Assembly (NCBI GenBank): GCA_020629355.1
Contig: JAHDDM010000003.1
Coordinates: forward strand, 1-18,074
DNA: 18,074 nt
Source of the DNA: Rhodospirillaceae bacterium
GTDB taxonomy: Bacteria > Pseudomonadota > Alphaproteobacteria > JABSOH01
Direction of reading: 5' to 3'
The translations under genes and the position numbers were made by a program. Shown here in pieces: positions 1-16,005 of the stretch (position 1 is the first letter of the stretch; each line of letters opens with the position of its first letter). The notes below the pieces were generated by a model, which searched no databases, was not told the DNA's origin, and saw only the letters and a program-made list of their open reading frames with translations.

Positions 1-1285
1 GCACAGAAAAGTTCACCTGAATCGCCTTGGCAACACTTTCGTAATTTTGGTCTTCTAAATTCAACGAGTTCAGTTCCAGCTTGCGGCTACGATCCGTTAA
101 CGAGCTGACGACTTTGGCCATTTCGGGGCTTTTCCGCGCCAAGATGCGCAAATTTGACACGAGGTTCTTGTTGACGTGAAAATTTGCTGCCGTGACATCA
201 GTGACATCCATATTTGCAGTATCACTTGGGACAAAAAGCTGCTGCTGCCAATATTCGGCATAGGGGCTATTGCCTGGAACACTATCACCTGGATAGGCTT
301 TTGGGGCATCAAAGGCCGCACCAAAGGCACCTGCAAAAGTATCAGGGTCATTGATTTTTGACGGTTTAACAAAAAGCTGAACCAGCCCATCTAATTGATC
401 TTGAATCTTTTGCAGCGGCGAAACATTCGGATCAGAAGCATCAGATGACTCCGCACCTGCGTCTTCGTAAGGCTTGATCAGCTGTATCTGCGCCCGAAGA
501 GAACCCTCTGGCAATTCATCCACCAGATTACGGCTGCTCAAAGCACTGTCAAGGCGGTAAGCGGTCTCGTCCCATGTAAAGGTATTGGCAAAACCACTGA
601 CCAAGGTTACGCCAGACTTGGTGTACAGGCTCACCGTACCATCGGTATTTCTCTGAACACTAACATCCACCGCCTTGGAAATTTCGTCAATGACGCGATC
701 TCGCTCGTTCTCAAAGCCACTGCGCGCGGATGACGAAGCCCCCTGAGAAATAACCGCCGTATTCAATTCGTCAACACGCGCAATATTTTCATTTAAGCCG
801 CTAATCGCCTGTCTTATGTCCACCGCAATATCCTGCCGAATAAGCTCCATCTCGCTTGAGAGTTGGCGAACCAGCGAGGCCATTTCCTTGGCAGCCGATT
901 CAATCTTAAAGGCCACGGCCTCATTTTCAGGAGCCGTTTGCAGTTCCCGCCAACCAGCAATAAAGGTATTGATGGTCGAGGTTAATTGCGAATTTCCGCT
1001 TGATGATCCCAAAATATCTGCGACTTCAGAGTACAGGTCACTCCGCACGCGGCTGGCCTCGGACCTAGCCAACGAACTGCGATAGTTTTTCTGCATCAAT
1101 TCATTCGTTTGACGCTGAATAGCCGCAACCCGAACACCAGCATTCGGATCGTCTTCCATCATCATCACGCGACGATTATAGTTCTCGTTATTCGCGTTGG
1201 CGACATTATCAGAAACTACGCCGAAATTCTCGGAGATGGTCTGCAACCCCGAAACCGCATTGTTCAATGATCTGATTAAAGTCAT
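1..1285 (-). CDS. flgK: Flagellar hook-associated protein 1, FlgK (3' end outside window)
   Basis: FlgK is the first hook-filament junction protein, exported by the flagellar type III system and assembled on the end of the hook. The frame runs open from an ATG at 1285 to the window edge, giving 428 codons with the C-terminus missing. The N-terminus (residues 1-40) has the heptad-like rod/hook family pattern: SLNNAVSGLQTISENFGVVS followed by DNVANANNENYNRR, corresponding to the usual NNIANANTPGYSRQ segment. The central FlgK-type coiled region (roughly 90-170) and the motif ERDRVIDEIS, typical of FlgK, follow. A strong ribosome binding site, TAAGGA with a 6-base spacer, overlaps the stop of the preceding flgN-like gene and fixes the start. 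It is the last gene seen in the flgI operon; flgL may lie beyond the left edge but cannot be seen. The Asn-rich NENYN in place of the usual TPGY is a small deviation. Confidence 0.9.
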   Translation of the reverse strand, partial: MTLIRSLNNAVSGLQTISENFGVVSDNVANANNENYNRRVMMMEDDPNAGVRVAAIQRQTNELMQKNYRSSLARSEASRVRSDLYSEVADILGSSSGNSQLTSTINTFIAGWRELQTAPENEAVAFKIESAAKEMASLVRQLSSEMELIRQDIAVDIRQAISGLNENIARVDELNTAVISQGASSSARSGFENERDRVIDEISKAVDVSVQRNTDGTVSLYTKSGVTLVSGFANTFTWDETAYRLDSALSSRNLVDELPEGSLRAQIQLIKPYEDAGAESSDASDPNVSPLQKIQDQLDGLVQLFVKPSKINDPDTFAGAFGAAFDAPKAYPGDSVPGNSPYAEYWQQQLFVPSDTANMDVTDVTAANFHVNKNLVSNLRILARKSPEMAKVVSSLTDRSRKLELNSLNLEDQNYESVAKAIQVNFSV

Positions 1286-1291
1286 GGCTTT

Positions 1292-1297
1292 TCCTTA
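1292..1297 (-). promoter_or_regulatory. Ribosome binding site of flgK
   Basis: On the minus strand TAAGGA lies 6 bases before the flgK ATG at 1285. The TAA of this site is also the stop codon of the preceding flgN-like gene, so termination there and initiation of flgK are probably coupled. Confidence 0.7.
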
Positions 1298-1729
1298 CAG
1301 CTCTTGATTATAGGCCAGCGCAACCGAACGCCGTCCACTGGTATCTTTCGCACCCATTTTACTATAACGCGACAAACGGTTCTGGGAATCCAATGCCGCT
1401 TGCGAGAAGCTTTCAAACATCTGATTACCCGCCTCTACCGCCCCTGCCAACAAGCGCTGATTACGCTCTGCGAGTTCCTGAAACTCTTCATTTGCTTCCA
1501 GAAGCTCTTCGCGCAAGTCCTCAGAGATGCCTTCGCGGATTTCCTTAAAGCGGCGTAAGTATTCCAGTTTCTTTGTGTACTGCTCGAACAAGGATACCTT
1601 ACGATCCACCAAAGGCTCGAACAAATCAACCTCTGAGGATTCCAGCATCGTGTTTTCCAAATTGACCAGTTCAATCATCCGATCAAGGATATCGAGTACC
1701 TCTTCTGCCAAAGAATCAGGATCACGCAT
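1295..1729 (-). CDS. flgN: FlgN-like flagellar export chaperone / junction-gene cluster protein
   Basis: A 144-residue acidic, almost wholly helical protein between flgJ and flgK. It is rich in Glu, Leu and Arg with heptad spacing (for example LAEEVLDILDRMIELVNLEN, near residue 6), as expected of FlgN chaperones that keep FlgK and FlgL soluble before export. The C-terminus, with YSKMGAKDTSGRRSVALAYN, resembles the tail of alphaproteobacterial FlgN proteins, which end in a short Tyr/Gly segment then an ALN-like motif. I choose the ATG at 1729 because it forms ATGCGTGA with the flgJ stop (8-base overlap). An in-frame TTG at 1747 would add six residues. Overall similarity is mostly compositional, so the family call rests on size, helical character, C-terminal motif and position next to flgK. 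Another small flagellar coiled-coil protein is the main alternative. Confidence 0.6.
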   Translation of the reverse strand: MRDPDSLAEEVLDILDRMIELVNLENTMLESSEVDLFEPLVDRKVSLFEQYTKKLEYLRRFKEIREGISEDLREELLEANEEFQELAERNQRLLAGAVEAGNQMFESFSQAALDSQNRLSRYSKMGAKDTSGRRSVALAYNQEL

Positions 1730-2048
1730 CGGAATTCTCGGCTTCAAGCTCTTGTAGTTTCAGCAATTGTTCTCGAACAGAATCGGCAATACCAATACCG
1801 CCACCTTCGGCGATTGAACGGGCATATTCATCCGCCATGAACGAACGATAAATCGTCTCAGAGTTGCCGCCGCCAAACATGCCCTCGCCGTCAACACCAG
1901 TGAACATATTTTCAATCATCAAAGACAGAAACTGGCTTTCAAACTCTTCTGCGGCCTCGTCTATTTTTTGGGCTTTCCACGATTGATCAATACGCTTTTG
2001 CGCCAGAACATCCTGCGGAAGATATGTATTCAAGCCTGGTATCGTCAT
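1722..2048 (-). CDS. flgJ: Rod-binding protein, FlgJ N-terminal-type (no muramidase domain)
   Basis: A 108-residue protein matching the rod-binding domain of FlgJ, which caps and helps assemble the flagellar rod in the periplasm. The recognisable core is AAEEFESQFLSLMIENMF (about residues 32-49), then GMFGGGNSETIYRSFMADEY and an IADSV segment. The bifunctional gammaproteobacterial FlgJ carries a C-terminal peptidoglycan hydrolase (about 150 more residues); here the protein ends after the rod-binding part, as in many alphaproteobacteria, where the homologue in Caulobacter is called CheL. Another enzyme must therefore open the wall for the rod. The ATG at 2048 follows the flgI stop by one base, and its stop overlaps the next gene's start, so it lies inside a translationally coupled flg operon. 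Confidence 0.88.
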   Translation of the reverse strand: MTIPGLNTYLPQDVLAQKRIDQSWKAQKIDEAAEEFESQFLSLMIENMFTGVDGEGMFGGGNSETIYRSFMADEYARSIAEGGGIGIADSVREQLLKLQELEAENSDA

Positions 2049-2049
2049 G

Positions 2050-3216
2050 CTACATCACCCGTATATCTGCATTGAGCGCACCAGCCGATTTAATGGCTTG
2101 CAATATCGTAATTAAATCACGCGGCCCAATACCCAAGGCATTCAGGCCATTGACCAAGTCCTGCAAGGTCACGCCACCATCGACAATAGCCAACCTATTT
2201 TCTGCGCCTTCATCAATGGCAATTTCGGTGCGTGGTACAACTTGTGTTGTACCAACATTCGAGAACGGCTGCGGCTGGGACACCTGCGCCTGTTCTGTAA
2301 TCCGAATGGTCAAATTGCCCTGCGCCACTGCAACTGGATTGATGCGAACATTCTCGCCCATCACGATGACACCAGATTGTTCATCAATCACGACATTGGC
2401 AATCATGTCTGGTTGAACCCGAAGCAGTTCAATCTCGGTCAATAGCGCAATCATACTGTCATTATAACCCGTGGGGCGTTGCAATTCTATCGTGCCAGGA
2501 TCAAGTACCGTCGTGACCTCAACGCCAACAAAAGCATCCACCGTCTTTTTAATCCGCGAAGCCGTGGTTAAATCAGGATTGCGCAAGGCCAAGCGCACAG
2601 AATTTAACGAGGACATTTCAAAGTTAATTTCACGCTCGACAATGCCACCATTCGCAATACGGCCACTGGTAGGAACACCTTTCAAGATAGTCTCTGCCGC
2701 GCCTTGCGCCTGAAAACCGCCTACGGTTACCGTACCCTGAGAAACCGCATAGACCTCACCATCTGCGCCAAGCAAAGGTGTCACCAACAAAGTGCCACCC
2801 AACAGACCTTTGGAATCGCCCAAGGCCGAAACCGCCACATCAATGCGCGAGCCTTGCCGTGCAAAAGGCGGCAAGGTTGCCGTGACCATCACCGCCGCGA
2901 CATTCTTGGTTGAAAGCCCCGCCCCCTGCGCGGTAACGCCAAGACGCTCTAACATACCCACCAGACTTTCACGGGTGAATATCGAGCTGGTTAGAGAATC
3001 TCCTGTGCCATTCAAGCCCACCACCAGACCATAGCCAATCAGCATATTGTCACGGACACCCTCAATATCCACGATATCTTTAAGGCGTGATTGCGCCTGC
3101 GCTTGATGGGCGTTCAACACCATAAATCCTGCAACAGCCAGCAATACAAAGACTGAGGCCAATTGTTGCATCAAGCCTTTAGGGCGTTTTTCTACAAGGT
3201 GGGACTTCTCTGTCAT
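2050..3216 (-). CDS. flgI: Flagellar basal-body P-ring protein FlgI
   Basis: FlgI forms the P-ring around the rod in the peptidoglycan layer. The mature part begins with SRLKDIVDIEGVRDNMLIGY and continues GLVVGLNGTGDS, both near-universal in FlgI. Later come GTLLVTPLLGADGEVYAVSQ, RIANGGIVERE and the C-terminal LVNGLNALGIGPRDLITILQ with the closing NADIRVM. Length (388 residues from this start) fits the family. A Sec signal peptide is visible: basic KRPKG, a hydrophobic stretch around LASVFVLLAVAGFMVL, then AHQAQAQ as the cleavage region. I prefer the ATG at 3216, preceded by AGGA, although an upstream in-frame ATG at 3243 would add nine residues. It is the first gene of the flgI-flgJ-flgN-flgK run and diverges from nnrD. 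A sigma-54-like promoter lies upstream. Confidence 0.93.
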   Translation of the reverse strand: MTEKSHLVEKRPKGLMQQLASVFVLLAVAGFMVLNAHQAQAQSRLKDIVDIEGVRDNMLIGYGLVVGLNGTGDSLTSSIFTRESLVGMLERLGVTAQGAGLSTKNVAAVMVTATLPPFARQGSRIDVAVSALGDSKGLLGGTLLVTPLLGADGEVYAVSQGTVTVGGFQAQGAAETILKGVPTSGRIANGGIVEREINFEMSSLNSVRLALRNPDLTTASRIKKTVDAFVGVEVTTVLDPGTIELQRPTGYNDSMIALLTEIELLRVQPDMIANVVIDEQSGVIVMGENVRINPVAVAQGNLTIRITEQAQVSQPQPFSNVGTTQVVPRTEIAIDEGAENRLAIVDGGVTLQDLVNGLNALGIGPRDLITILQAIKSAGALNADIRVM

Positions 3217-3276
3217 CGTCCTGTCGATCAATAATCTGCACATTTCATCGGCTCAATACAGAGCATCTTAGCCTAT

Positions 3277-3295
3277 ATTCATGCGAAATTCATGC
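3277..3295. repeat. Octamer direct repeat with 11-base period in the flgI-nnrD intergenic region
   Basis: ATTCATGC occurs at 3277-3284 and again at 3288-3295 on the plus strand, an 11-base period, close to one helical turn. It lies between divergent flgI and nnrD and overlaps the sigma-54-like element, so it may be an operator for either gene. The function is not known. Confidence 0.4.
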
Positions 3296-3297
3296 CA
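3282..3297 (-). promoter_or_regulatory. Sigma-54-like promoter upstream of flgI
   Basis: Read on the minus strand, the site is TGGCATGAATTTCGCA. Against the sigma-54 consensus TGGCACG-N4-TTGCA it keeps the invariant GG, the ten-base spacing and the invariant GC, and differs at two positions. Transcription would start near 3272, leaving a leader of roughly 30-55 bases before flgI depending on its start codon. Sigma-54 control of P-ring, hook and junction genes is established in several alphaproteobacteria. An overlapping octamer direct repeat could partly explain the match, so this is a prediction. Confidence 0.55.
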
Positions 3298-3320
3298 TTT
3301 TTATACCGCACAACCGATTT

Positions 3321-4208
3321 ATGACAGATGACAATATTTCAAAAAAACAGTACAAAGCATTTATGATTGAGAACTCCCCTGCCCTCTGGCAACATCTGCT
3401 GCGCGCGCCTGAGCCTGAGGCCAACAAATACAGCCGAGGTTTTGCCTTTATCCTTGGTGGTGAATTTATGACGGGCGCAAGCGCCCTTGCCGCCAGAGCC
3501 GCGCAGCGCGCTGGTGCGGGTATCGTCACCCTCACCTGCCCGAAGGGTGCAGCAGATGTATATCGTATTGTGAACCCTAGCACCATCACCCTAGGCTTTC
3601 GCGACACCTTGGGCTACAAGGAGCAGCTTGAGGACTCGCGCATCCATGCTTATCTGGTAGGCCCTGGCCTTGGTGACGGCCCGGCCAATACCGAACGCAT
3701 TATGGCCATGATCCGCCGTGGCAAACCCATGGTACTTGATGCCGATGCCTTAATGATCATGGCGGCAACACGGGAAAACTTCCTTAATCTGCTGGATGAA
3801 TACTATACTCCAGAAAGCCGCCGTAATATCCTGCTGACACCGCATCGCGGTGAATTCAATGCCCTATTTCCTGAGTATGCTGCACTACCTGCCGATGAAG
3901 CCGCCTCTGCTGCTGCCAATTTATTCGGAACAACAATCCTGCTCAAAGGCCACGACAGCTATATCGCGGAACAGACACAGGAATTGTGCAAGAATGCCGC
4001 CGCATCACCCTGGCTTGCCACAGCCGGCAGTGGTGACGTCCTAAGCGGACTATGTTTGGGCTTGCTTGCACAGGGCTTTTCAGCATACATTAGCGCCTGT
4101 ATCGCTACAGCAATACATGCTAAAGCTGCATCTGAGATAGGTCCTGGTTTAATCGCCGAAGATTTGAATGATTTCATCCCCCTGATACTTGCAGCTTTTA
4201 TGGATTAA
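3321..4208 (+). CDS. nnrD: ADP-dependent NAD(P)H-hydrate dehydratase (stand-alone)
   Basis: This enzyme repairs hydrated NADH/NADPH (NAD(P)HX) using ADP, in the cytoplasm. Diagnostic features are NKYSRGFAFILGG (residues 35-47), the family segment VGPGLGDGPAN (113-123), VLDADAL (138-144), the substrate-loop motif TPHRGEF (173-179), and the nucleotide-binding GSGDVLSG (236-243) with the catalytic Asp. The protein is 295 residues and carries only the dehydratase domain; the NAD(P)HX epimerase domain (NnrE/YjeF N-terminal), fused in E. coli NnrR, is absent. An epimerase must therefore be encoded elsewhere or be missing. Similarity to the family begins around residue 18 (NSPALW), so the ATG at 3363 is a credible alternative start; neither start has a clear ribosome binding site. 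The gene diverges from flgI and is followed after 11 bases by the TerC-type gene. Confidence 0.88.
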   Translation: MTDDNISKKQYKAFMIENSPALWQHLLRAPEPEANKYSRGFAFILGGEFMTGASALAARAAQRAGAGIVTLTCPKGAADVYRIVNPSTITLGFRDTLGYKEQLEDSRIHAYLVGPGLGDGPANTERIMAMIRRGKPMVLDADALMIMAATRENFLNLLDEYYTPESRRNILLTPHRGEFNALFPEYAALPADEAASAAANLFGTTILLKGHDSYIAEQTQELCKNAAASPWLATAGSGDVLSGLCLGLLAQGFSAYISACIATAIHAKAASEIGPGLIAEDLNDFIPLILAAFMD

Positions 4209-4219
4209 GGTCAAAATTC

Positions 4220-4819
4220 ATGGAATATTTTACCAGCCTACTGGCCTCCTTTGAACTGGAAGCCTTTATCAAGGTCATTATTATCGACCTGCTGCTATCT
4301 GCAGATAATGCCATTATTATCGGTGTCGCCGTAAAAGGGCTGCCGGCGCATCTTCGCGGTCGCGCGATTTTCTTTGGTATTGCTGCTGCAACCTTGATGC
4401 GCATTATCTTTGCGCTGCTGACTTACCAGCTACTTCAGATTATCGGCCTCACTCTGGCTGGCGGATTACTACTATTGTGGGTTGCCTATAAGATGTGGCG
4501 CGAAAGCCAGAAAGATGAACAATCTGAAGAAGGCAAGTCTGGCACGACTCTTTGGGAAGCCATTCGGTTGATCGTGGTGGCCGATGTTGTGCTATCGCTC
4601 GATAATGTATTGGCGGTTGCAGGTGCGGCACACGACTCGCCTATCGTACTGATTTTTGGGCTTGGGCTTTCGGTAATTCTGATGGCTGTAGCGGCCAATC
4701 TGTTGGCCAGAATCCTAAACCGCTACCACTGGCTGGTCTATGTCGGCATTGCGGTTATTGTCTATGTTGCCGTTGAAATGATCCATCGCGGCTCGGTTCA
4801 AGTCGCGCCATATCTCTAG
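4220..4819 (+). CDS. TerC/YjbE-family integral membrane protein, putative metal exporter
   Basis: A 199-residue multi-pass inner-membrane protein of the TerC family, YjbE type; some members are manganese exporters or supply metal to secreted proteins. Two related halves are visible, each with the acidic, metal-binding-type motif: DLLLSADNAIIIG (residues 23-35) and DVVLSLDNVLAV (122-133). Hydrophobic stretches cover roughly 14-36, 50-70, 74-92, 115-135, 143-165 and 170-190, and a charged cytosolic loop (about 93-108, KMWRESQKDEQSEEGKSG) joins the halves. YjbE-type genes are often preceded by a manganese riboswitch, but there are only 11 bases after nnrD, so no such leader fits here. It is probably cotranscribed with nnrD. 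The substrate cannot be read from the sequence. Confidence 0.85.
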   Translation: MEYFTSLLASFELEAFIKVIIIDLLLSADNAIIIGVAVKGLPAHLRGRAIFFGIAAATLMRIIFALLTYQLLQIIGLTLAGGLLLLWVAYKMWRESQKDEQSEEGKSGTTLWEAIRLIVVADVVLSLDNVLAVAGAAHDSPIVLIFGLGLSVILMAVAANLLARILNRYHWLVYVGIAVIVYVAVEMIHRGSVQVAPYL

Positions 4820-4910
4820 GTTTTGCGTTTTAGCCGAACCTTTCGGACTGCTGCTCTATCGCCCACGAGTCTATGTACTTCTGCATCCCAAACAAACAGC
4901 AGGCTAAGAC

Positions 4911-5738
4911 ATGACTCAAGAATTGCGCCAACTGAACACAAGCCTAGAAAGATTAGTGCAGATTAACCAGGAAGGTCTGGATAAAACCAACCAGCAACTC
5001 ACCGAACAACAGAATCTGCAATCGGCTCTGCGCAAGCAATCTAATGAATTCAAAGGACTGGCACGCGACTTAACGAAGCCCGCACAAAGCTCCACAAGCT
5101 TCACCGCGCAATTTCAGATTAAGAAACTTGATCAGGCCTTCAGCAAAAGCATAAAAATTATGGATAAGGAATTGGAAAAATTTGCCCGTAGCGGCAAGTT
5201 TAACCTACGTAGCCTCGGCACGGCCCTGCTGAAAATGCTGTTCAGTATTGAAAAGACGGCTCAAAAAAGCCAACAGAGCATCGGGCTTAATAGCATTGGC
5301 AGCAGTATTACCTCGGGCATTGGCGAGGTGCTCGGTGGCTTCTTTCACGATGGCGGAACAGTGAGCAAAAACCGCATGAATACACCGCTACCTAGCGAGA
5401 CCTTTGCCACCGCGCCAAGGCTTCACCGTGGTGGCAGACTGAGTGCAGGCTTGGGGCCAGCAGAATTTCCCGCAATCTTACAACGCGGTGAAACTGTTCT
5501 TAGCGCGCGGCAATCCCAAAATACACAAGCCCCTGCTGCCAAGGTTGATGTCCACATCCACGAGAACTCTGGCGCAAGAGTACGCACCAAACGCCAACAA
5601 CAGGCGGGCGGGAGCGAACGGATCGATGTCTTTATCGAGGCCGTAGAAGAACAGCTTTCCCAACGTATCATGCGCGGGGAAGGCATGGCAGGCAGTATCG
5701 AGGATCGCTATAATCTCAGCCCCAACCCCATGAGTTAG
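4911..5738 (+). CDS. Orphan protein resembling the C-terminal part of a phage tail tape measure protein
   Basis: A 275-residue protein in four parts. Residues 1-60 are a Gln/Asn-rich coiled coil. Residues 72-115 contain FARSGKFNLRSLGTALLKML, which matches the pattern of the conserved C-terminal segment of lambda-type tape measure proteins (FVTTGKLNFKDLARSIL-like). Residues 142-200 hold the Gly-rich linkers FHDGG and LHRGGRL and then FPAILQRGETVLSARQ, again highly typical of tape-measure C-termini. Residues 211-275 (VDVHIHENSGARV, ERIDVFIEAVEEQLSQRIM) match the usual closing NNAGAEV...IDVMID pattern. The long helical ruler that normally precedes these parts is absent; at a full 500-1500 residues tape measures set tail length. 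AGG with a 7-base spacer supports the ATG at 4911. No other phage gene lies nearby. It could be a domesticated tail gene, a gene-transfer-agent-type short tape measure, or a prophage remnant that kept an intact frame. Confidence 0.65.
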   Translation: MTQELRQLNTSLERLVQINQEGLDKTNQQLTEQQNLQSALRKQSNEFKGLARDLTKPAQSSTSFTAQFQIKKLDQAFSKSIKIMDKELEKFARSGKFNLRSLGTALLKMLFSIEKTAQKSQQSIGLNSIGSSITSGIGEVLGGFFHDGGTVSKNRMNTPLPSETFATAPRLHRGGRLSAGLGPAEFPAILQRGETVLSARQSQNTQAPAAKVDVHIHENSGARVRTKRQQQAGGSERIDVFIEAVEEQLSQRIMRGEGMAGSIEDRYNLSPNPMS

Positions 5739-5768: not shown

Positions 5769-8015
5769 CTATTTGCCCTGAAACCCGTTGCCTTTGGGCA
5801 TTCCCTTCGGCAGAGTCTTGCCCGCACGTGCGCGTTGTCCGCTCCATTCCTGCCAATCTGGCAACTGGCGACGGCGGCCTTCTTTCGACAGCCATATCGG
5901 GCCGTCTTCCTCAAGGAAGGTTTGAGCATCAAGGAATTTCGTCCCCTTACACTGCATCAAGATGACACCTCGGCCTTTGTTCAGTTCTGGTATCTGATCA
6001 AGAGCAAAAATCAGCAATTTATGCTGTTTATTCAAGCACGCAATCCAGTCACCAGCAACAATACTGCAATGACACGCGACTTCTTTGTCGTTCAGGTGCA
6101 AGATTCGTTTACCATTCTTGGTTTGCGCAATGACTTCTTTGGCTGGCACAATCAGACCGCGGCCACTGGAAGAAGCCAATAATAATTTTTGCTCCGCCGC
6201 ATAAGGTAAAGCCTGAATCAATTCCAGCGCGCTATCAAGCTTTAACAAAAGATGCAACGGCTCGCCGTAGCCCTTGCCGCCTGGGAGTTTATCCACCCCC
6301 AAACTATAAAATCTGCCATTATCGGCAAAGAACAATAGCGATTGTTGTGATTGCGCCTCGATAAAGAAGCGACCTTCATCATCCTGTCTATAGTTGAGTT
6401 TACTCGGATCGTGGTCATGGCCTTTCAGCACGCGTACCCATCCCTGCTTCGAGATAATCACAGTGACGGGCTCTGAAGGCATCAGTGCCGCCTCTATGTC
6501 CACATCAGAAGAAATAACCGTACCTGCAACCTCCGTGCGTCTGCCGCCTAAAGGGTGCTTTGCAGAATATCGCTTCTTGACCTCTTGGATCTCTGCCGTA
6601 ATGGTCTTCCATTGCAAGTCTGGCTGTTCATACAAAGCACGCAACTCACTCTGCTCCGCTATCAAGGCAATATATTCCTCTTCAATGGCCTCCTCGCGCA
6701 ATTTCGACAGACTACGCAAACGCATCTGCAAAATCGCTTCGGCCTGAAGCTCATTCAAGCCATATTCTGCCATTAAGTCGGCTTTGGGTTTATCGGATTC
6801 GCGGATAAGACGGATAATCGCATCCAAGTGCGCATAGCAAATGCGCAAACCTTCCAAGATATTCAAGCGCTCCGCTATTTGATCCAATCGATACTTTGTG
6901 CGGTGTAATAAAACCACCAGACGATGATCCAGCCATTCCTGTATCAATTCCCGAAGACCCATCAGTTTCGGACGGCGGCCTTGATCAGTCAAGACATTCA
7001 TATTCACGCCAAAGCGAAGCTGTAAATCCGTTTTCTGGAACAATCCTTCCATGAAGACCTCTGGCTGCATGGTGCGCGACTTAGGGATCAGCACCAGACG
7101 AATTTCTGCATCGGATTCGTCGCGGGCATCAGCCAAAAAGGGCAACTTCTTATCATCCTGTAATTGCGCCATTTTTTCAAGCAAACGCGATTTCTTCAAA
7201 GGATAAGGCAGACCCGTCACAATCGCTTGCCACTGACCGCCTTTCAGCTTTTCGACATGCCAATTTGCCCGTACCGTAATACTGCCGCGCCCTGTCCCAT
7301 AAATATTCATTAGAGTTTCTGAGGATTCACAAATAACTCCGCCAGTGGGAAAATCTGGCCCTGGCACAAACTCCATCAATTTTTGCAGTGAGGCTTGCGG
7401 ATGGCGGATCAGATATATCGCGGCTTGGCATATTTCTTCCAGATTATGCGGCGGGATATTCGTCGCCATACCCACCGCAATACCACTTGCACCATTGCAC
7501 AGAAGCTGCGGGAATCCTGCTGGCAGAACCTCTGGCTCTTCCTGTTCACCGTCATAGGTGGTACGAAAAGCCACCGCTTCCTCGCCCAAACCCTCAAGCA
7601 ACAGTTCTGCTAAATCCGTCAATCGCGCCTCGGTATAACGCATGGCAGCTGGGTTATCACCATCAAGATTACCAAAGTTCCCCTGCCCATCCACAAGCGG
7701 ATATCGCACCGAAAAGTCCTGTGCCAAACGCGCCAGAGCATCATAAATCGCCTTGTCGCCATGGGGGTGAAATTTACCCATGACATCTCCGACAATCCGC
7801 GCGCATTTTTTATAGCCACTGGCATGACCAAGGCGCAATGCCTGCATTCCAAACAGAATTCGGCGTTGCACGGGCTTCAAGCCATCACGCGCATCCGGCA
7901 GAGACCGTGCGGTGATAATCGATAAAGCATAGGCAAGATAACGATCAGATAGCGCATCACCTACGGTTTCTACCCGCAAATCGCCAATGTCATCTTGATC
8001 AGTCAATGTATTCAC
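5769..8015 (-). CDS. parC: DNA topoisomerase IV subunit A
   Basis: ParC is the DNA-cleaving subunit of topoisomerase IV, which unlinks daughter chromosomes together with ParE. From the GTG at 8015 the protein has 748 residues, close to E. coli ParC (752). The winged-helix/tower region holds the catalytic Tyr127 in PAAMRYTEARLTD, preceded by DGQGNFGNLDGD. The quinolone-determining helix reads HPHGDKAIYDALARLAQDFS (83-102): Lys88 sits where E. coli ParC has Ser80 and GyrA has Ser83. The C-terminal beta-pinwheel lacks a canonical GyrA box and instead has GRGVILMQCKG near residue 695, supporting ParC over GyrA. The frame is open upstream to 8195 but that part overlaps recO; I choose GTG 8015, which has GGA 7 bases upstream and lies 32 bases after the recO stop. 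It is the last gene of the comEC operon and converges with the tape-measure-like gene across 30 bases. Confidence 0.93.
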   Translation of the reverse strand: MNTLTDQDDIGDLRVETVGDALSDRYLAYALSIITARSLPDARDGLKPVQRRILFGMQALRLGHASGYKKCARIVGDVMGKFHPHGDKAIYDALARLAQDFSVRYPLVDGQGNFGNLDGDNPAAMRYTEARLTDLAELLLEGLGEEAVAFRTTYDGEQEEPEVLPAGFPQLLCNGASGIAVGMATNIPPHNLEEICQAAIYLIRHPQASLQKLMEFVPGPDFPTGGVICESSETLMNIYGTGRGSITVRANWHVEKLKGGQWQAIVTGLPYPLKKSRLLEKMAQLQDDKKLPFLADARDESDAEIRLVLIPKSRTMQPEVFMEGLFQKTDLQLRFGVNMNVLTDQGRRPKLMGLRELIQEWLDHRLVVLLHRTKYRLDQIAERLNILEGLRICYAHLDAIIRLIRESDKPKADLMAEYGLNELQAEAILQMRLRSLSKLREEAIEEEYIALIAEQSELRALYEQPDLQWKTITAEIQEVKKRYSAKHPLGGRRTEVAGTVISSDVDIEAALMPSEPVTVIISKQGWVRVLKGHDHDPSKLNYRQDDEGRFFIEAQSQQSLLFFADNGRFYSLGVDKLPGGKGYGEPLHLLLKLDSALELIQALPYAAEQKLLLASSSGRGLIVPAKEVIAQTKNGKRILHLNDKEVACHCSIVAGDWIACLNKQHKLLIFALDQIPELNKGRGVILMQCKGTKFLDAQTFLEEDGPIWLSKEGRRRQLPDWQEWSGQRARAGKTLPKGMPKGNGFQGK

Positions 8016-8047: not shown

Positions 8048-8752
8048 TTACGGTGTATCGGCAAGGTTTTCCAGTAAATTCCTGCGAAACTCTGGCATGG
8101 TCTCGACAAAAGAAAATGCCCGCTTCAGAAAATATCCCGTGATGTGCAACCCTGCCACTATGTCCACGATGTCCGTTGATTGCTCTTGCCAGCATTTCGG
8201 CATTTCAAAGAGTTGATCACGATAAGGCGCGCCATGTTCACGACAAACCGCCCTAGCGGATTTTGGCGAAATATACTGCAAATTCTGCATGTTACACCCA
8301 ACAGAAGCACACGTGCTGAGATCAAGGCCAAACCCCATGGTTTCCAAAAAAGTCCTTTCCCACTCAAGATAATGCCTCGCCCAATCCGCACTGGAAAAAG
8401 CCGCTAAAAGATACAAGGTTGCCTCGTACAGCCTTGCCTCTGCCTCGCGTTCGTTGAGCGCTGTTTGCAAAAGGTAACTCATGGACAGCAAGCCTTGCAT
8501 GGCACGGGGCGTAAGGCCCAAAGGATCAAAACCCCCTAGTCGCTCTATCGAGCTTTGGCCTAAATGTTCCTCGAGTCGCGCCCGCCAGCGCACCCGAACA
8601 TATTCGCCAGCTTGCAAATTACCACTATGTTTCGGAACACGAAACAGTCCTGAAATTAAACCAAAATCCTGACTGAACACCTTGGCAACATATTTGGAAT
8701 CCCCAAGATTTTTCTGGCCTAAGAATATCCCATCTGATTGAATTTCCATCAT
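8048..8752 (-). CDS. recO: DNA repair protein RecO
   Basis: RecO works with RecR and RecF to load RecA on single-stranded DNA coated with SSB. The 234-residue protein has an N-terminal OB-fold (residues 1-80) with GIFLGQKNLGDSKYVAKVFS and the typical GLISGLFR, then the helical domain with LSMSYLLQTALNEREAEARL and an FLETMGFGLDL segment before the metal-site region. That region holds Cys148, Cys153 and Cys170, with His173 close by, a zinc-site-like set common in RecO outside the gammaproteobacteria. The downstream ISPKSARAV and GAPY motifs match the family. The ATG at 8752 shares one base with the glcF stop (TAATG); a second ATG follows directly at 8749. An upstream frame to 8854 merely overlaps glcF. 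Confidence 0.88.
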   Translation of the reverse strand: MMEIQSDGIFLGQKNLGDSKYVAKVFSQDFGLISGLFRVPKHSGNLQAGEYVRVRWRARLEEHLGQSSIERLGGFDPLGLTPRAMQGLLSMSYLLQTALNEREAEARLYEATLYLLAAFSSADWARHYLEWERTFLETMGFGLDLSTCASVGCNMQNLQYISPKSARAVCREHGAPYRDQLFEMPKCWQEQSTDIVDIVAGLHITGYFLKRAFSFVETMPEFRRNLLENLADTP

Positions 8753-11180: not shown

Positions 11181-12619
11181 GGCCGCAATTCTTCAGAAAA
11201 AGGCAAGATTTTTCCAGGGTTCAGACGTTCTTCAGCGTCAAAAGCACGCCGCAAGCGGTAATGCTGTCGTAAAGTTTCAGCGTTAAATTGATAGGGCATC
11301 AAGTCACGTTTTTCCACGCCAATACCATGTTCACCAGAAAGACACCCGCCAACATCGACGCACAGCTTCAAGATTTCAGCACCACAGGCTTCGGCCTTCT
11401 CCTGCTCTTGGTCTTTATTGGCATCGAACAGAATCAATGGATGCAGATTCCCATCACCAGCATGAAAGACATTCGCCACCATCAAGCCATAGCGCGTGGA
11501 TATTTCTTCGACTTTCCGTAAAACATGGGCTAATTGACCATGAGGGATCACACCATCAATACAAAAATAATCTGGCGCAAGCTGTCCCACCGCAGAAAAC
11601 GCTGCCTTACGGCCTTTCCAGAGTAATTCGCGTTCGGTTTCTGTCTTCGCAATACGTTGAAACGTTGGTTGGTAAGGCTGTGCAATCGCGCATACCTGCT
11701 CTAGCAGAGTATCTATTTCCGCTTCACTACCTTCAACCTCGACAATCAGCACGGCAGCACAGTCCGTAGGATAGCCTGCCTTGGCGTAATGCTCGATCGC
11801 TTGCAGAGAAGGCTTATCCATAAATTCAATGGCTACTGGAATAATACCAGCAGCAATAATTGCCGCTACACAACTTCCAGCAGAAGCATTATCGCCAAAA
11901 CCCAACAGTATTGGACGCGCACCAGGGGCTTTCGGCAATAGGCGCACTGTAACTTCTGTGACCAAGCCCAAACTGCCCTCTGAGCCTGTGATGATCCCCA
12001 TCAGATCCAGACCAGCACTGTCACCAGCAGCAGAGCCTAGGGTGCAGACCTCGCCTTCAGCGGTCACAAAAGTCGCCGCAACAATATTATTCGTGGTCAC
12101 GCCATATTTCAGCGAATGCGCGCCGCCAGAGTTCATCGCGATATTGCCCCCAATAGTACAGGCAAGCTGGCTTGAAGGATCAGGCGCATAGAACAGGTTA
12201 TCTCCATCAGCATAATCACTAATGGAAAGATTCGTCGTACCGGCCTGAACCCGCATCAAACGCGAGGCAGGGTCATAGTCCAACACAGCGCGCATTCGTG
12301 CCATGGAAAGAACTATACCGTCACGCACTGGCAATGCGCCGCCTGTCAAAGACGTGCCTGCCCCGCGTGGGACAACCGCGATTTTCTCCCTGAAGCAATA
12401 GGCCATGATTTTGGCAACATCATCTGTGGTGTAAGGCAAAACCACCAGCATCGGCACGGCGGTATAACTGTTCAATGCATCTGATTCATAAAGCTTACGC
12501 TCATCGAGATGACGCACCACAACATCCTTACGCTCAAGCAGGCGCTCTATCTGATCGGCATGATGTTCAGCAGCAGCGATTGTTTCCTCAGCGACTGGTG
12601 GCATGGTAAGAGAAGTCAT
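11177..12619 (-). CDS. glcD: Glycolate oxidase FAD-linked subunit GlcD
   Basis: GlcD is the catalytic flavoprotein of glycolate oxidase, taking electrons from glycolate (and often D-lactate) in the cytoplasm at the membrane. The 480-residue protein has the FAD_binding_4 N-terminus with PRGAGTSLTGGALP (residues 84-97), APDPSSQLACTIGGNIAMNS, the segment GIITGSEGSLGLVTEVTVRL, and the C-terminal domain ending in HAGDGNLHP and CLSGEHGIGVEKRDLM (with the catalytic-type His), then LNPGKILP. The ATG at 12619 overlaps the comEC stop as ATGA and has GGAG six bases upstream; an in-frame GTG at 12631 would add four residues but lacks such a signal. No glcC-type regulator is adjacent, so the operon is likely driven by the promoter of comEC. 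Confidence 0.94.
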   Translation of the reverse strand: MTSLTMPPVAEETIAAAEHHADQIERLLERKDVVVRHLDERKLYESDALNSYTAVPMLVVLPYTTDDVAKIMAYCFREKIAVVPRGAGTSLTGGALPVRDGIVLSMARMRAVLDYDPASRLMRVQAGTTNLSISDYADGDNLFYAPDPSSQLACTIGGNIAMNSGGAHSLKYGVTTNNIVAATFVTAEGEVCTLGSAAGDSAGLDLMGIITGSEGSLGLVTEVTVRLLPKAPGARPILLGFGDNASAGSCVAAIIAAGIIPVAIEFMDKPSLQAIEHYAKAGYPTDCAAVLIVEVEGSEAEIDTLLEQVCAIAQPYQPTFQRIAKTETERELLWKGRKAAFSAVGQLAPDYFCIDGVIPHGQLAHVLRKVEEISTRYGLMVANVFHAGDGNLHPLILFDANKDQEQEKAEACGAEILKLCVDVGGCLSGEHGIGVEKRDLMPYQFNAETLRQHYRLRRAFDAEERLNPGKILPFSEELRP

Positions 12620-14583
12620 GGGGCACTCCACGGACGATTACGCTGCAATGATAAAGACTTTATACCTGATGTTTCAAGCATAATACGCATTGCGCTGAAA
12701 TCACGGTAAGGATCACTGGCGCAATAGTACAATGGCATGATTGCTTCTTCAGCACAACCATCCAGAGATATTGTGAGACTCTGAGAATTTTTACTTAAAA
12801 GACAAGTCTTTGCGCTGCATGACCACTCAAGGCCAGCGACTGAGCCCGTATCCTGCCACGGAATTTCTTGACGCTGCAAAATCTTCTGCCATTGCTCCAG
12901 AAGGTAATTGTTCGGTTTCATGCCTTTGGGCAACATAAAGCCTTGCTCTGTCACAATCGCCCAAGTTCCTGTGGAACGATGCAGCGCAAAATCGGTATCA
13001 GCGCGGAATATCAAATAGCCTGTTACGATACCGATAACAACACCCAAGATGATCCCGCGTATGAATGGATATAGCCCTTTCATCACCAACAGATAAAGCC
13101 CTGCTGCTGTGATGAAAATCATCAATAAAGGCGGCATTGGCGGCAAGGCAAGATGGCTATGAGGCAGGTCTGCAATGACCTCAGCCCATATGACCAGCAG
13201 TTCTATTCCAAATTCCAACGGCAAAGCCAACAGAGTATTCAAGCCCACAAAGCAAGAAGCTATATACAATAATATCAAGGGCATAACCAATATACCCATC
13301 CACGGTATCGCGATAATATTTGCAAACGCGCCATAGGGATACAAGGTCTGAAAATGCCCCCAAAGTAAAGCAGAGGTGAAAATCGAAATCAGACTTGAGG
13401 TAATAAAAATCTCGATACAGAATCGGAGGGATCTTGGGAATCTCGTGAAAGGTTGCACCCACCAGTCTCTTTGCTGCCAATAGCCGATAAGGACAATCAC
13501 CGCGCTGAAAGACAGCAGAAAACCTGGTTCGATCACCACCGAAGGGCGCGCAAGAAAAATCACCACAGCAGCCAGAGCCAAACTGCGATACCGAATCGCA
13601 TCACGTTCGACAATCCAGGCCAGCATCACAAAGCAAATCATGATAAATGCCCGATACATGGATACTGCACCACCAGTAAGCTCGATATAGAAATACGCAA
13701 AAAGAACTGCAATTCCAGCAGCATAACGATGTATTGGATAGCTCAGCACCAAGGGCGGGTATAGTGCAGCACTACGGCGAATAAAACCGAATATGACAAA
13801 AGCAATCATGCCAATATGCAGTCCAGATATTGCCAATAAATGCGCCAGTCCAGAGCGGCGAAACTGCTCAGACTGCGCTTCGGACAGGCTTTGACGATCA
13901 CCCAAAATCAAGGCACGAAGTACAGCAGCGGTATCTTCGCTAAAGTCCTGTTCGAGCAAGATATACAAACTTTGGCGCATTTCTGCCCAAAAAGACGTGT
14001 TTTCTTGTTCAGCAGAGATAATATCGGCAGGAAATATCGCATAGCCCACCGCGATAATCTGGTGAAAGAAAGCATAACGGGCAAAATCGAAGCCTTCGGG
14101 AATTACTGGCGCACTCGGCGGATACAGCCGCACCAACTGGCGTATCTCTGCCCCCTGTTCGAGTGATTCTTTAGTGCTGATACGAACAAGACCGTTCATG
14201 GCCTGCCCATCCAGTTTCACCGATGCCAGTGTCGTCCGCCATCTCCCCTGTCCAGCATATTCCACCTCATGCACAATACCTTGCAGGCGGATATTCTGCT
14301 CTGTTTCTTGAAAACGGCTGAGACTTTCAGCAAGGCTGTTGGCACGGTACTGTGCATAGGATACCCCCACCAATAGTCCCAAAACGATTAAGGCAATCGC
14401 ATAGTCATACTTTTTGACATAGGCCAACAACAACAAGACAAAAGTAACTCCTGATACGCCATACAGCAGCTCTGTTGCTGGTTCTGTTGGAAGATGGTAA
14501 TAAATCATCGCACCGATGCACAGGGACAAGGCAAAGCTCGATAGCCCTTGAGGAATCAATGTTTGCGTGTTTTTGATCATCAT
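12616..14583 (-). CDS. comEC: ComEC/Rec2-type DNA uptake channel protein
   Basis: ComEC forms the inner-membrane channel for single-stranded DNA in natural transformation. The protein is 655 residues. The N-terminal third has hydrophobic helices and an OB-like soluble part (residues about 95-185). The Competence domain (about 205-480) contains VLRALILGDRQSLSEAQSEQ, the hallmark SGLAHLLAISGLHIGMIA, and GGAVSMYRAFIMI. About ten membrane segments follow. The C-terminal soluble part has Cys-containing stretches (CSAKTCLL, DGCAEEAIMPLYYCASD) and ends RNRPWSAP; it lacks the HxHxDH metallo-beta-lactamase motif of Bacillus ComEC, as in other alphaproteobacteria. The start is the ATG at 14583 (or 14580), 24 bases from gltX on the other strand. 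Upstream frame to 14718 is only antisense to gltX. It leads the comEC-glcDEF-recO-parC operon. Confidence 0.88.
   Translation of the reverse strand: MMIKNTQTLIPQGLSSFALSLCIGAMIYYHLPTEPATELLYGVSGVTFVLLLLAYVKKYDYAIALIVLGLLVGVSYAQYRANSLAESLSRFQETEQNIRLQGIVHEVEYAGQGRWRTTLASVKLDGQAMNGLVRISTKESLEQGAEIRQLVRLYPPSAPVIPEGFDFARYAFFHQIIAVGYAIFPADIISAEQENTSFWAEMRQSLYILLEQDFSEDTAAVLRALILGDRQSLSEAQSEQFRRSGLAHLLAISGLHIGMIAFVIFGFIRRSAALYPPLVLSYPIHRYAAGIAVLFAYFYIELTGGAVSMYRAFIMICFVMLAWIVERDAIRYRSLALAAVVIFLARPSVVIEPGFLLSFSAVIVLIGYWQQRDWWVQPFTRFPRSLRFCIEIFITSSLISIFTSALLWGHFQTLYPYGAFANIIAIPWMGILVMPLILLYIASCFVGLNTLLALPLEFGIELLVIWAEVIADLPHSHLALPPMPPLLMIFITAAGLYLLVMKGLYPFIRGIILGVVIGIVTGYLIFRADTDFALHRSTGTWAIVTEQGFMLPKGMKPNNYLLEQWQKILQRQEIPWQDTGSVAGLEWSCSAKTCLLSKNSQSLTISLDGCAEEAIMPLYYCASDPYRDFSAMRIMLETSGIKSLSLQRNRPWSAP
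12626..12629 (-). promoter_or_regulatory. Ribosome binding site of glcD
   Basis: On the minus strand GGAG precedes the ATG at 12619 by a 6-base spacer, inside the last codons of comEC. It decides in favour of this start over the GTG at 12631. Confidence 0.6.
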
Positions 14584-14595
14584 ATTCGCTTGTTT

Positions 14596-14599
14596 AGGA
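14596..14599 (+). promoter_or_regulatory. Ribosome binding site of gltX
   Basis: AGGA with an 8-base spacer precedes the ATG at 14608. It selects this start over an in-frame ATG at 14548 that would add twenty residues not seen in the family. Confidence 0.65.
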
Positions 14600-14607
14600 A
14601 AACTCTT

Positions 14608-16005
14608 ATGTCTTCTATCGTTACACGATTTGCGCCAAGTCCAACAGGGATGTTGCATATTGGCGGCGTGCGTACAGCTTTGATCAACTGGCTTTTTGCC
14701 CGCCACCATGGCGGGCAATATCTGGTGCGTATCGAGGACACAGACCGCAAACGCTCGACACCTGAAGCCGTAAAGGCCATTGAAGACGGGCTAGAGTGGC
14801 TTGGCCTTGGCAGTGATCAGGATATTGCGTATCAATCCACAAGGCAGGCACGTCACCGCGCCGTTGCTGAACAGCTTGTGCAGCAGGGCAAAGCCTACTA
14901 CTGCCAGTGCAGCACCGAAGAGCTTACGGAAATGCGCACTACTGCTCGTGCAGAGGGCAGAACGCGGGTTTATGACCGTCGTTGTCGTGATGCAGATATC
15001 GCAACAGAAGCAGAAACGGTGGTGCGCTTAAAAGTCCCAACCACAGGCGAGACCACTATTGATGATTGGGTTCAGGGTTCTATCAGCATGCAGAATGATC
15101 ACCTTGATGATTATATTTTGCTTCGTGCCGATGGGACACCGACCTATATGCTGTCCTGTGTTGTCGATGATGCGGATATGAATATCAGCCATATCATTCG
15201 CGGCGATGACCATATCAACAATGCGTTTCGACAAATACAGCTTATTCGCGCGGCGGGTTTTCCTGAACCAGCTTACGGTCATATTCCGCTTTTGCACGGG
15301 GATGACGGTGCCAAGCTCTCGAAGCGTCATGGCGCGCTTGGTGTTGATCATTACCGAACAGAAGGCTATTTGCCTGAAGCTTTATTAAACTATCTGATGC
15401 GCCTGGGTTGGGGTAAAGGCGAAGAAATCCTGCCTCTGGCGCAAGCCGCCGAAATATTTGCCCTCAGCGATATGAGCAAAGCCGCCGCCCGAGTCGACTT
15501 TGCACGTTTGAAGTATTTTAACGCCAGCTATTTACGCAATATGTCCAACGAAAAAGCGGTTGCACACCTTGCAGCCTATCGGGACTGTGTTTTCTCAAGC
15601 CCTGAACAGGAAATACTCCTTCGTGGCCTGAATAGCCTTACTCAACGTACCGAAACGCTAGAAGAGCTATCCAACGCTGCAAATATTTATCTATACCCAC
15701 CCATTTGGCCTTTGGTTGATCAAAAGGCCGCCAAGCAATTTGCCGCGAAAGCCTCAGATGCTGGATTGCAGGATATACACCGTCTTGCTGGCAGTTGGGC
15801 TTTTGACAGTGCCGAATCTCTCAAAGAGGCAGTTGCAGGCTATGTTACCGAACGTAATATCGGCTTCGGCAAGGTAGGGCAGCCTTTGCGCATTGCTCTC
15901 TGTGGCACGATGCAAGCACCCGATATTGGCGAGATACTGTACGCACTTGGTGCAGATGAAACAAAAAACAGACTTGCGCACGCGATAGAAAATATTGAAA
16001 ATTAA
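14608..16005 (+). CDS. gltX: Glutamate--tRNA ligase (GltX)
   Basis: This class I synthetase charges tRNA-Glu, and in bacteria that lack GlnRS also tRNA-Gln. The 465-residue protein has the HIGH-type motif HIGG (17-20) within FAPSPTGMLHIGGVRTAL, and the KMSKS-type KLSKR (236-240) within GAKLSKRHGALG. A zinc-site-like pattern is visible as Cys99-x-Cys101, Tyr122 and Cys126, in YYCQC and YDRRC, the Cys-x-Cys...Tyr...Cys pattern seen in related GluRS and Glu-Q-RS. IIRGDDHINNAFRQIQLIRA (about 199-218) is family-typical. The length and a full anticodon-binding domain rule out the short Glu-Q-RS. It is divergent from comEC across 24 bases, so promoters for both must lie partly inside the opposite gene. 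Its stop is shared with the convergent tusA-like gene. Confidence 0.95.
   Translation: MSSIVTRFAPSPTGMLHIGGVRTALINWLFARHHGGQYLVRIEDTDRKRSTPEAVKAIEDGLEWLGLGSDQDIAYQSTRQARHRAVAEQLVQQGKAYYCQCSTEELTEMRTTARAEGRTRVYDRRCRDADIATEAETVVRLKVPTTGETTIDDWVQGSISMQNDHLDDYILLRADGTPTYMLSCVVDDADMNISHIIRGDDHINNAFRQIQLIRAAGFPEPAYGHIPLLHGDDGAKLSKRHGALGVDHYRTEGYLPEALLNYLMRLGWGKGEEILPLAQAAEIFALSDMSKAAARVDFARLKYFNASYLRNMSNEKAVAHLAAYRDCVFSSPEQEILLRGLNSLTQRTETLEELSNAANIYLYPPIWPLVDQKAAKQFAAKASDAGLQDIHRLAGSWAFDSAESLKEAVAGYVTERNIGFGKVGQPLRIALCGTMQAPDIGEILYALGADETKNRLAHAIENIEN

Follow-up and report, generated by a model that had tools for sequence, protein, structure and literature searches.

The stretch of DNA analyzed here (the window) is 18,074 nucleotides long and makes up an entire contig (18,074 of 18,074 b of C177) of a 1.25-Mb, 65% complete alphaproteobacterial genome, G000. 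An unbroken open reading frame of 275 codons runs from 4911 to 5738 on the forward strand and is preceded by an in-frame TAA at 4905–4907. The features of the locus are as follows.

3321–4208, forward strand: gene with an NAD(P)H-hydrate dehydratase domain (PF01256; Pfam)
4220–4819, forward strand: terC (PF03741; Pfam), the upstream neighbor, in the same direction and ending 91 bp ahead of the short gene
4900–4903, forward strand: CAGG, candidate ribosome-binding site 7 nt ahead of the ATG (read from the sequence)
4911–5738, forward strand: short tape-measure-like gene, 275 aa (ORF list, profile matches, homologs)
4911–5282, forward strand: residues 1–124, predicted long helical stretch (low-confidence model)
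5121–5249, forward strand: residues 71–113, Tape_meas_lam_C (PF09718) core (Pfam profile)
5346–5510, forward strand: residues 146–200, H-x-GG ... R-LHRGG ... PAILQRGETVL, the most conserved tape-measure signature (alignments)
5538–5735, forward strand: residues 210–275, predicted strands and C-terminal helix (alignment, low-confidence model)
5769–8015, reverse strand: parC (topoisomerase IV subunit A), the downstream neighbor, convergent (homologs)

The intact frame described in the earlier note is present over all 275 codons, and the ribosome-binding site that it mentioned may be the CAGG at 4900–4903. The GC content of the gene (0.510), its GC3 (0.542) and its codon usage all lie within the range of 15 neighbors. 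No Rfam element at the gathering score and no tRNA was found in the window; a promoter scan gave one hit (1.3 in shuffles), a terminator scan gave four (2.0 in shuffles), none judged useful, and a repeat search returned short pairs only.

To the left of the tape-measure gene are flagellar genes (FlgN by profile, and others that we take to be flgK, flgJ and flgI), the dehydratase gene and terC. To the right are parC, recO, glcE, comEC, gltX, a TauE-type gene and an Alph_Pro_TM gene, together with two genes that are presumably glcF and glcD. The start of parC was set at 8015, as in a 748-aa database entry (P0032), with the longest frame starting at 8195. Every other nameable frame on the 18-kb contig is a host gene and no other phage gene was recognized there, so that the isolated position between terC and parC noted earlier holds over the 18,074 b as far as the frames could be named. 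No integrase or satellite genes were recognized among the window ORFs, nor any defense genes among the neighbors examined. Tail chaperone and distal tail genes, as expected in a tape-measure neighborhood, were not recognized among the nameable frames beside the gene, and it does not lie inside a head-tail cluster in the manner of RcGTA. The presence of comEC (12616–14718) on the same contig is probably a coincidence; competence proteins are described as importing RcGTA-delivered DNA (PMC7296036).

In PHROG profiles, the last ∼200 residues of the protein match tail tape-measure proteins (TMPs) of the lambda type in their C-terminal module. The top match is a family without a named function (phrog_20862, E 2.2e-11), and three tape-measure families, phrog_2335 (E 1.6e-8), phrog_8462 (E 4.6e-7) and phrog_1716 (E 6.3e-6), confirm the resemblance to tape measures that had been read from the sequence by eye. 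Pfam Tape_meas_lam_C (PF09718) scored 20.9 bits (E 3.8e-4) in a single-protein search, below the 23-bit cut-off, and 23.5 bits, above it, in the genome scan; an NCBIfam search of the protein gave no match. The earlier note had divided the similarity into four successive stretches, a division that does not hold, since in the closest long TMPs a single continuous region corresponds to the last ∼200 residues; the alignment with those of two genomes (G292 and G378) extends to the very end of the protein. Compared by eye, the N-terminal ∼70 residues had no evident counterpart at the N-terminal ends of four long TMPs, in agreement with the earlier view that this 275-aa protein lacks the long ruler and has an N-terminus of its own. 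An AlphaFold model built from five sequences was poor (mean pLDDT 46.8, pTM 0.21) and placed predicted helices at 3–55, 66–94 and 99–124, strands within 212–242 and a helical end. A search of solved structures gave nothing significant; its top match, at E 0.13, was to a tape-measure chain. PADLOC gave weak matches of the protein to ZorA (E 1.4e-4; residues 3–139, window 4917–5327) and RTasRmuC (E 0.06), and the ZorA matches of the helical N-terminal half are probably a coiled-coil effect.

A homolog search of 5.8 billion proteins, in which 1293 candidates were scored, matched six other proteins at E ≤ 1e-3. Four of these are 270–293 aa long and 80, 77, 72 and 43% identical to the window protein, with BLAST coverage of 100, 100, 100 and 80% (the last for the 43% homolog); all four are full-length proteins with similar endings, and these same-size homologs on other contigs support a short intact form of the protein. 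The other two aligned over 21% only and were excluded from the family. Linkage of homologs to the neighboring genes was inferred where two proteins are listed with contigs of exactly equal size. By this measure the 77% homolog (P0003) appears to share a 4950-b contig with a TerC of 91% identity (P0009), the 72% homolog (P0004) a 35,385-b contig with a TerC of 88% identity (P0012), and the 43% homolog (P0005) a 543,264-b contig with a ParC of 74% identity (P0037), which does not imply adjacency. The 4950-b pairing is the weakest of these linkages because short contigs are common. The approach was checked once: a TerC listed with a contig of 19,275 b (P0016) is 100% identical to the TerC on contig C101 of a same-genus genome (G001), which is of equal size, and a named MAG contig of this size carries the same DNA. 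No TerC was found on the contig of the 80% homolog (P0002; 4894 b) or of P0005 among the 24 TerC matches listed, and no ParC on the 4894-, 4950- and 35,385-b contigs among the best 120 of 7360 matches listed. The terC–gene–parC synteny raised in the earlier note is therefore upheld in part: linkage to terC seems to extend to two more genomes, but adjacency to parC is seen in the window alone and was not recovered for the homologs. A mis-joined contig is unlikely, since the terC linkage recurs, as judged by equal contig sizes, in those two genomes.

Relatives of the gene were scarce in phage sequence. Among viral contigs, the queries P0001 and P0005 found no relatives in single-protein scans, which detect close relatives only, and the alignment query A1 found one distant match, 33% identical over residues 169–243 and in a long frame; seven matches came from a control scan with the long G292 TMP. 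A tblastn search of phage genomes returned 36 records, all below 60% identity and none reaching 80% query coverage, and two plasmid records matched, also below 60%. The A1 scan of named genomes matched 321 stretches with no relative among them. In the class sample, 16 of 385 genomes matched at E ≤ 1e-5, the window's own included, and the 17 matches comprised its own, three short frames (229, 248 and 262 aa) and 13 long frames (717–1473 aa); with P0001 alone as query, 3 of 59 relatives were found at E ≤ 1e-3, its own included. We reject a recently landed prophage scrap because of the host-like composition, the same-size homologs elsewhere and the scarcity in the viral contigs scanned.

The same-genus MAG G001 (95% complete) has no match to the tape-measure gene, and a search for remnants on its terC and parC contigs found none (best E 1.0). 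It retains flgK–flgN–flgI and dehydratase–terC; flgI lies beside terC in one of 80 loci examined (flanks ≤3 kb), and that one is G001's contig. Directly 3′ of its terC, at the position that the tape-measure gene has in the window, is an IS630-type transposase ORF of 122 aa (L069, 2828–3196). The G001 ParC is 73% identical, over its last 237 residues only, and the gene adjoining parC there is presumably rpsB. Gain in one line and loss in the other are indistinguishable from the comparison of G000 and G001, and we lean toward loss in G001 because the genome of the 43% homolog has a ParC (74%) about as distant as that of G001 (73%).

Identity among the homologs is unevenly distributed along the protein, as constraint would produce. 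In the three close homologs identity is 91, 91 and 88% over residues 210–275 and 75, 75 and 62% over residues 1–75; the deeper (43%) relative shows 45% identity over the C-terminal module. In neutral simulations with substitutions only (300 at each level), the frame stayed free of stops in 31, 16, 4 and 0 runs at 80, 77, 72 and 43% identity, respectively. The support that this lends is weakened because the database holds predicted open frames only and the homologs are related to each other, and we regard the simulations on the open frame as supportive, not conclusive. The gene also diverges faster than its neighbors (TMP 77 and 72% versus TerC 91 and 88%; TMP 43% versus ParC 74%), which counts against strong constraint. 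We infer that a short TMP has probably been fixed in this host lineage and kept there by selection.

Membership of a gene-transfer agent or another tail device, as the earlier note proposed, is unsupported so far. Five capsid and tail families, HK97 Phage_capsid (PF05065), Mu gpT capsid, Phage_tube_2, Phage-tail_3 hub (PF13550) and DUF2460 (PF09343), were each found in neither of the two genomes searched, G000 and G001. In the controls, Caulobacter was positive for four of the five families and the Mu gpT family was positive in Synechococcus only. The tail tube was sought through Phage_tube_2 because this family occurs near both of the closest long TMPs and two short TMPs. Since G000 is 65% complete, one tail locus could be missing from it by chance. 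The only Terminase_6N match in G000 is on a P2-like 4.5-kb contig (C132), on which a P2-like terminase large subunit, a portal and a head scaffold/protease occupy 778–4487 (L037); P2 has a contractile tail. The terminase of G001 lies within an apparent prophage, which we take to be podovirus-type.

Our tentative explanation for these results is that this alphaproteobacterial lineage has fixed a short tape-measure gene of the lambda type in its chromosome and that selection has retained it as a host gene, one whose product would most likely still act as a tape measure in trans. Docking on a tail-tip complex would fall to the C-terminal module, and a short non-contractile tail would take its length from the helix of ∼120 residues, with the other tail parts presumably encoded elsewhere in the genome, as in a dispersed GTA-like particle. 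Although its probability is well below even, we consider it the best explanation and put it slightly ahead because the conserved part is a tape measure's working end and because short forms occur in phage-type clusters of three genomes. The lack of recognized partners from the five families in G000 and G001 and the lack of a match to the gene itself in G001 both count against it, as does the P2-like setting of the only Terminase_6N match in G000. An off-cluster TMP would also be unusual, because a chaperone-like gene lies shortly before the TMP in two of the clusters with short TMPs.

A host-encoded decoy or substitute is a somewhat more doubtful reading, in which the tape measure, made alone, is incorporated into the tails of infecting phages, or contends for the chaperone and tip complex of these phages, and leaves their tails shortened or nonfunctional. 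This reading predicts a lone gene such as the one in the window, and the same-size homologs, by the linkage inferred above, seem to be kept as host genes; moreover, the protein carries the C-terminal module of siphophage-type TMPs. Defense at tail assembly has precedents in kind in Tab, Tai, Rta and PLE: the C-terminus of the phage TMP is where sensitivity to Tab is reported to map (PMC10884400), Tai likewise is reported to act at tail assembly (PMC11364771), ICP1 reportedly escapes Rta through TMP substitutions, and the chimeric, shorter tails made with PLE satellites contain a TMP of the satellite (PMC12987554). Yet these published defense proteins are described as targeting tail proteins rather than as TMPs, the neighbors examined include no recognized defense gene, the PADLOC matches are weak, and a C-terminal module that is 88–91% identical within the close clade (45% in the deeper relative) is unlike the fast change of an arms race. 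In its full form, a tape measure turned host gene and chromosomally fixed as a decoy or substitute against infecting siphophages, whose tails it would shorten or inactivate, this reading is unlikely. We judge it equally improbable that the gene is a functionless relic, all that remains of a lost prophage or GTA and now drifting. Drift would account for the lack of partners from the five families in G000 and G001, for the lack of a match in G001, where a transposase ORF stands behind terC, and for the faster change relative to TerC and ParC, but it sits poorly with four full-length homologs that share the same ending, with the uneven identity along the protein, and with stop-free drift to 43% identity in 0 of 300 simulations. 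Least probable among these readings is a new cellular function, in which a coiled-coil protein with a TMP-like end has a role outside tails, such as one at the membrane or together with a chaperone; the nameable neighbors are host genes and the first ∼70 residues lack an evident counterpart in the N-terminal parts of four long TMPs, but the part that is conserved is a tail-type module common to phage TMPs.

Tape measures are known as components of whole tails, whether of phages, gene-transfer agents or tailocins. The gene in the window looks like a phage part that the host has put to use, and it seems to be retained in related species as well. In a limited search of open papers, by title and by the beginnings of abstracts, no lone tape measure maintained by a host lineage was reported. 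If this lineage does keep the part alone, then either particle genes can be dispersed until the ruler stands by itself, or the ruler alone is useful to the host, and both meanings are testable with one cloned gene. Tape measures have recently been found in satellites as well (PMC12987554).

Among known tape measures, those of three other genomes are similar in size to the window protein (242 aa in G088, 228 aa in G049 and 258 aa in G288) but lie inside head-tail or phage-type clusters. They are 22–24% identical to it, and the G088 protein has a similar C-terminal end. A short form of the TMP seems workable, since these three genomes have TMPs of 228–258 aa in phage-type clusters. In G088 the cluster (L028, 1–7466) holds a Mu-type portal, protease, gpT capsid, Gp36, tail terminator, tail tube and the 242-aa tape measure. 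The compact cluster of G049 (L030, 2412–16875) holds a Mor-type activator, Mu Gp27, Terminase_6, Phage_tube_2, the 228-aa tape measure and a Phage-tail_3 hub; it is a Mu-like prophage or a GTA and lies ∼500 bases from host-type genes that are likely fmt and def. The 258-aa tape measure of G288 (L029, 8528–9304; PF09718 E 3.4e-18) is in an apparent cluster whose remaining genes we take to be phage-type. The chaperone-like gene shortly 5′ of the TMP in two of the short-TMP clusters matches Phage_TAC_4 at 18.2 and 19.8 bits, below the cut-off of 21.1.

The long lambda-type TMPs, for example those of G292 (873 aa) and G378 (848 aa), align with the window protein throughout their last ∼200 residues, but they have ∼600 extra residues, do not have its N-terminus and have a Phage_tube_2 tail-tube gene nearby. 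The satellite TMPs of PLE and some cf-PICIs resemble the window gene in that a TMP is encoded outside a full tail operon, tmp genes being shown for cf-PICIs in a figure legend of the source; unlike the window gene, they lie in satellites, and in PLE11 genes for a tail chaperone and a hub accompany the TMP, neither of which was recognized on the window contig (PMC12987554). RcGTA g11 (Rcc01694) of Rhodobacter capsulatus belongs to a GTA gene set, whereas the window gene stands alone. As described, g11 starts with a helix of 113 residues, continues with strands and loops over 83 residues and ends in 20 helical residues (PMC7296036). At the level of architecture, the low-confidence model of the 275-aa window protein would parallel this description, with a predicted N-terminal helical stretch followed by strands and loops and a C-terminal helix.
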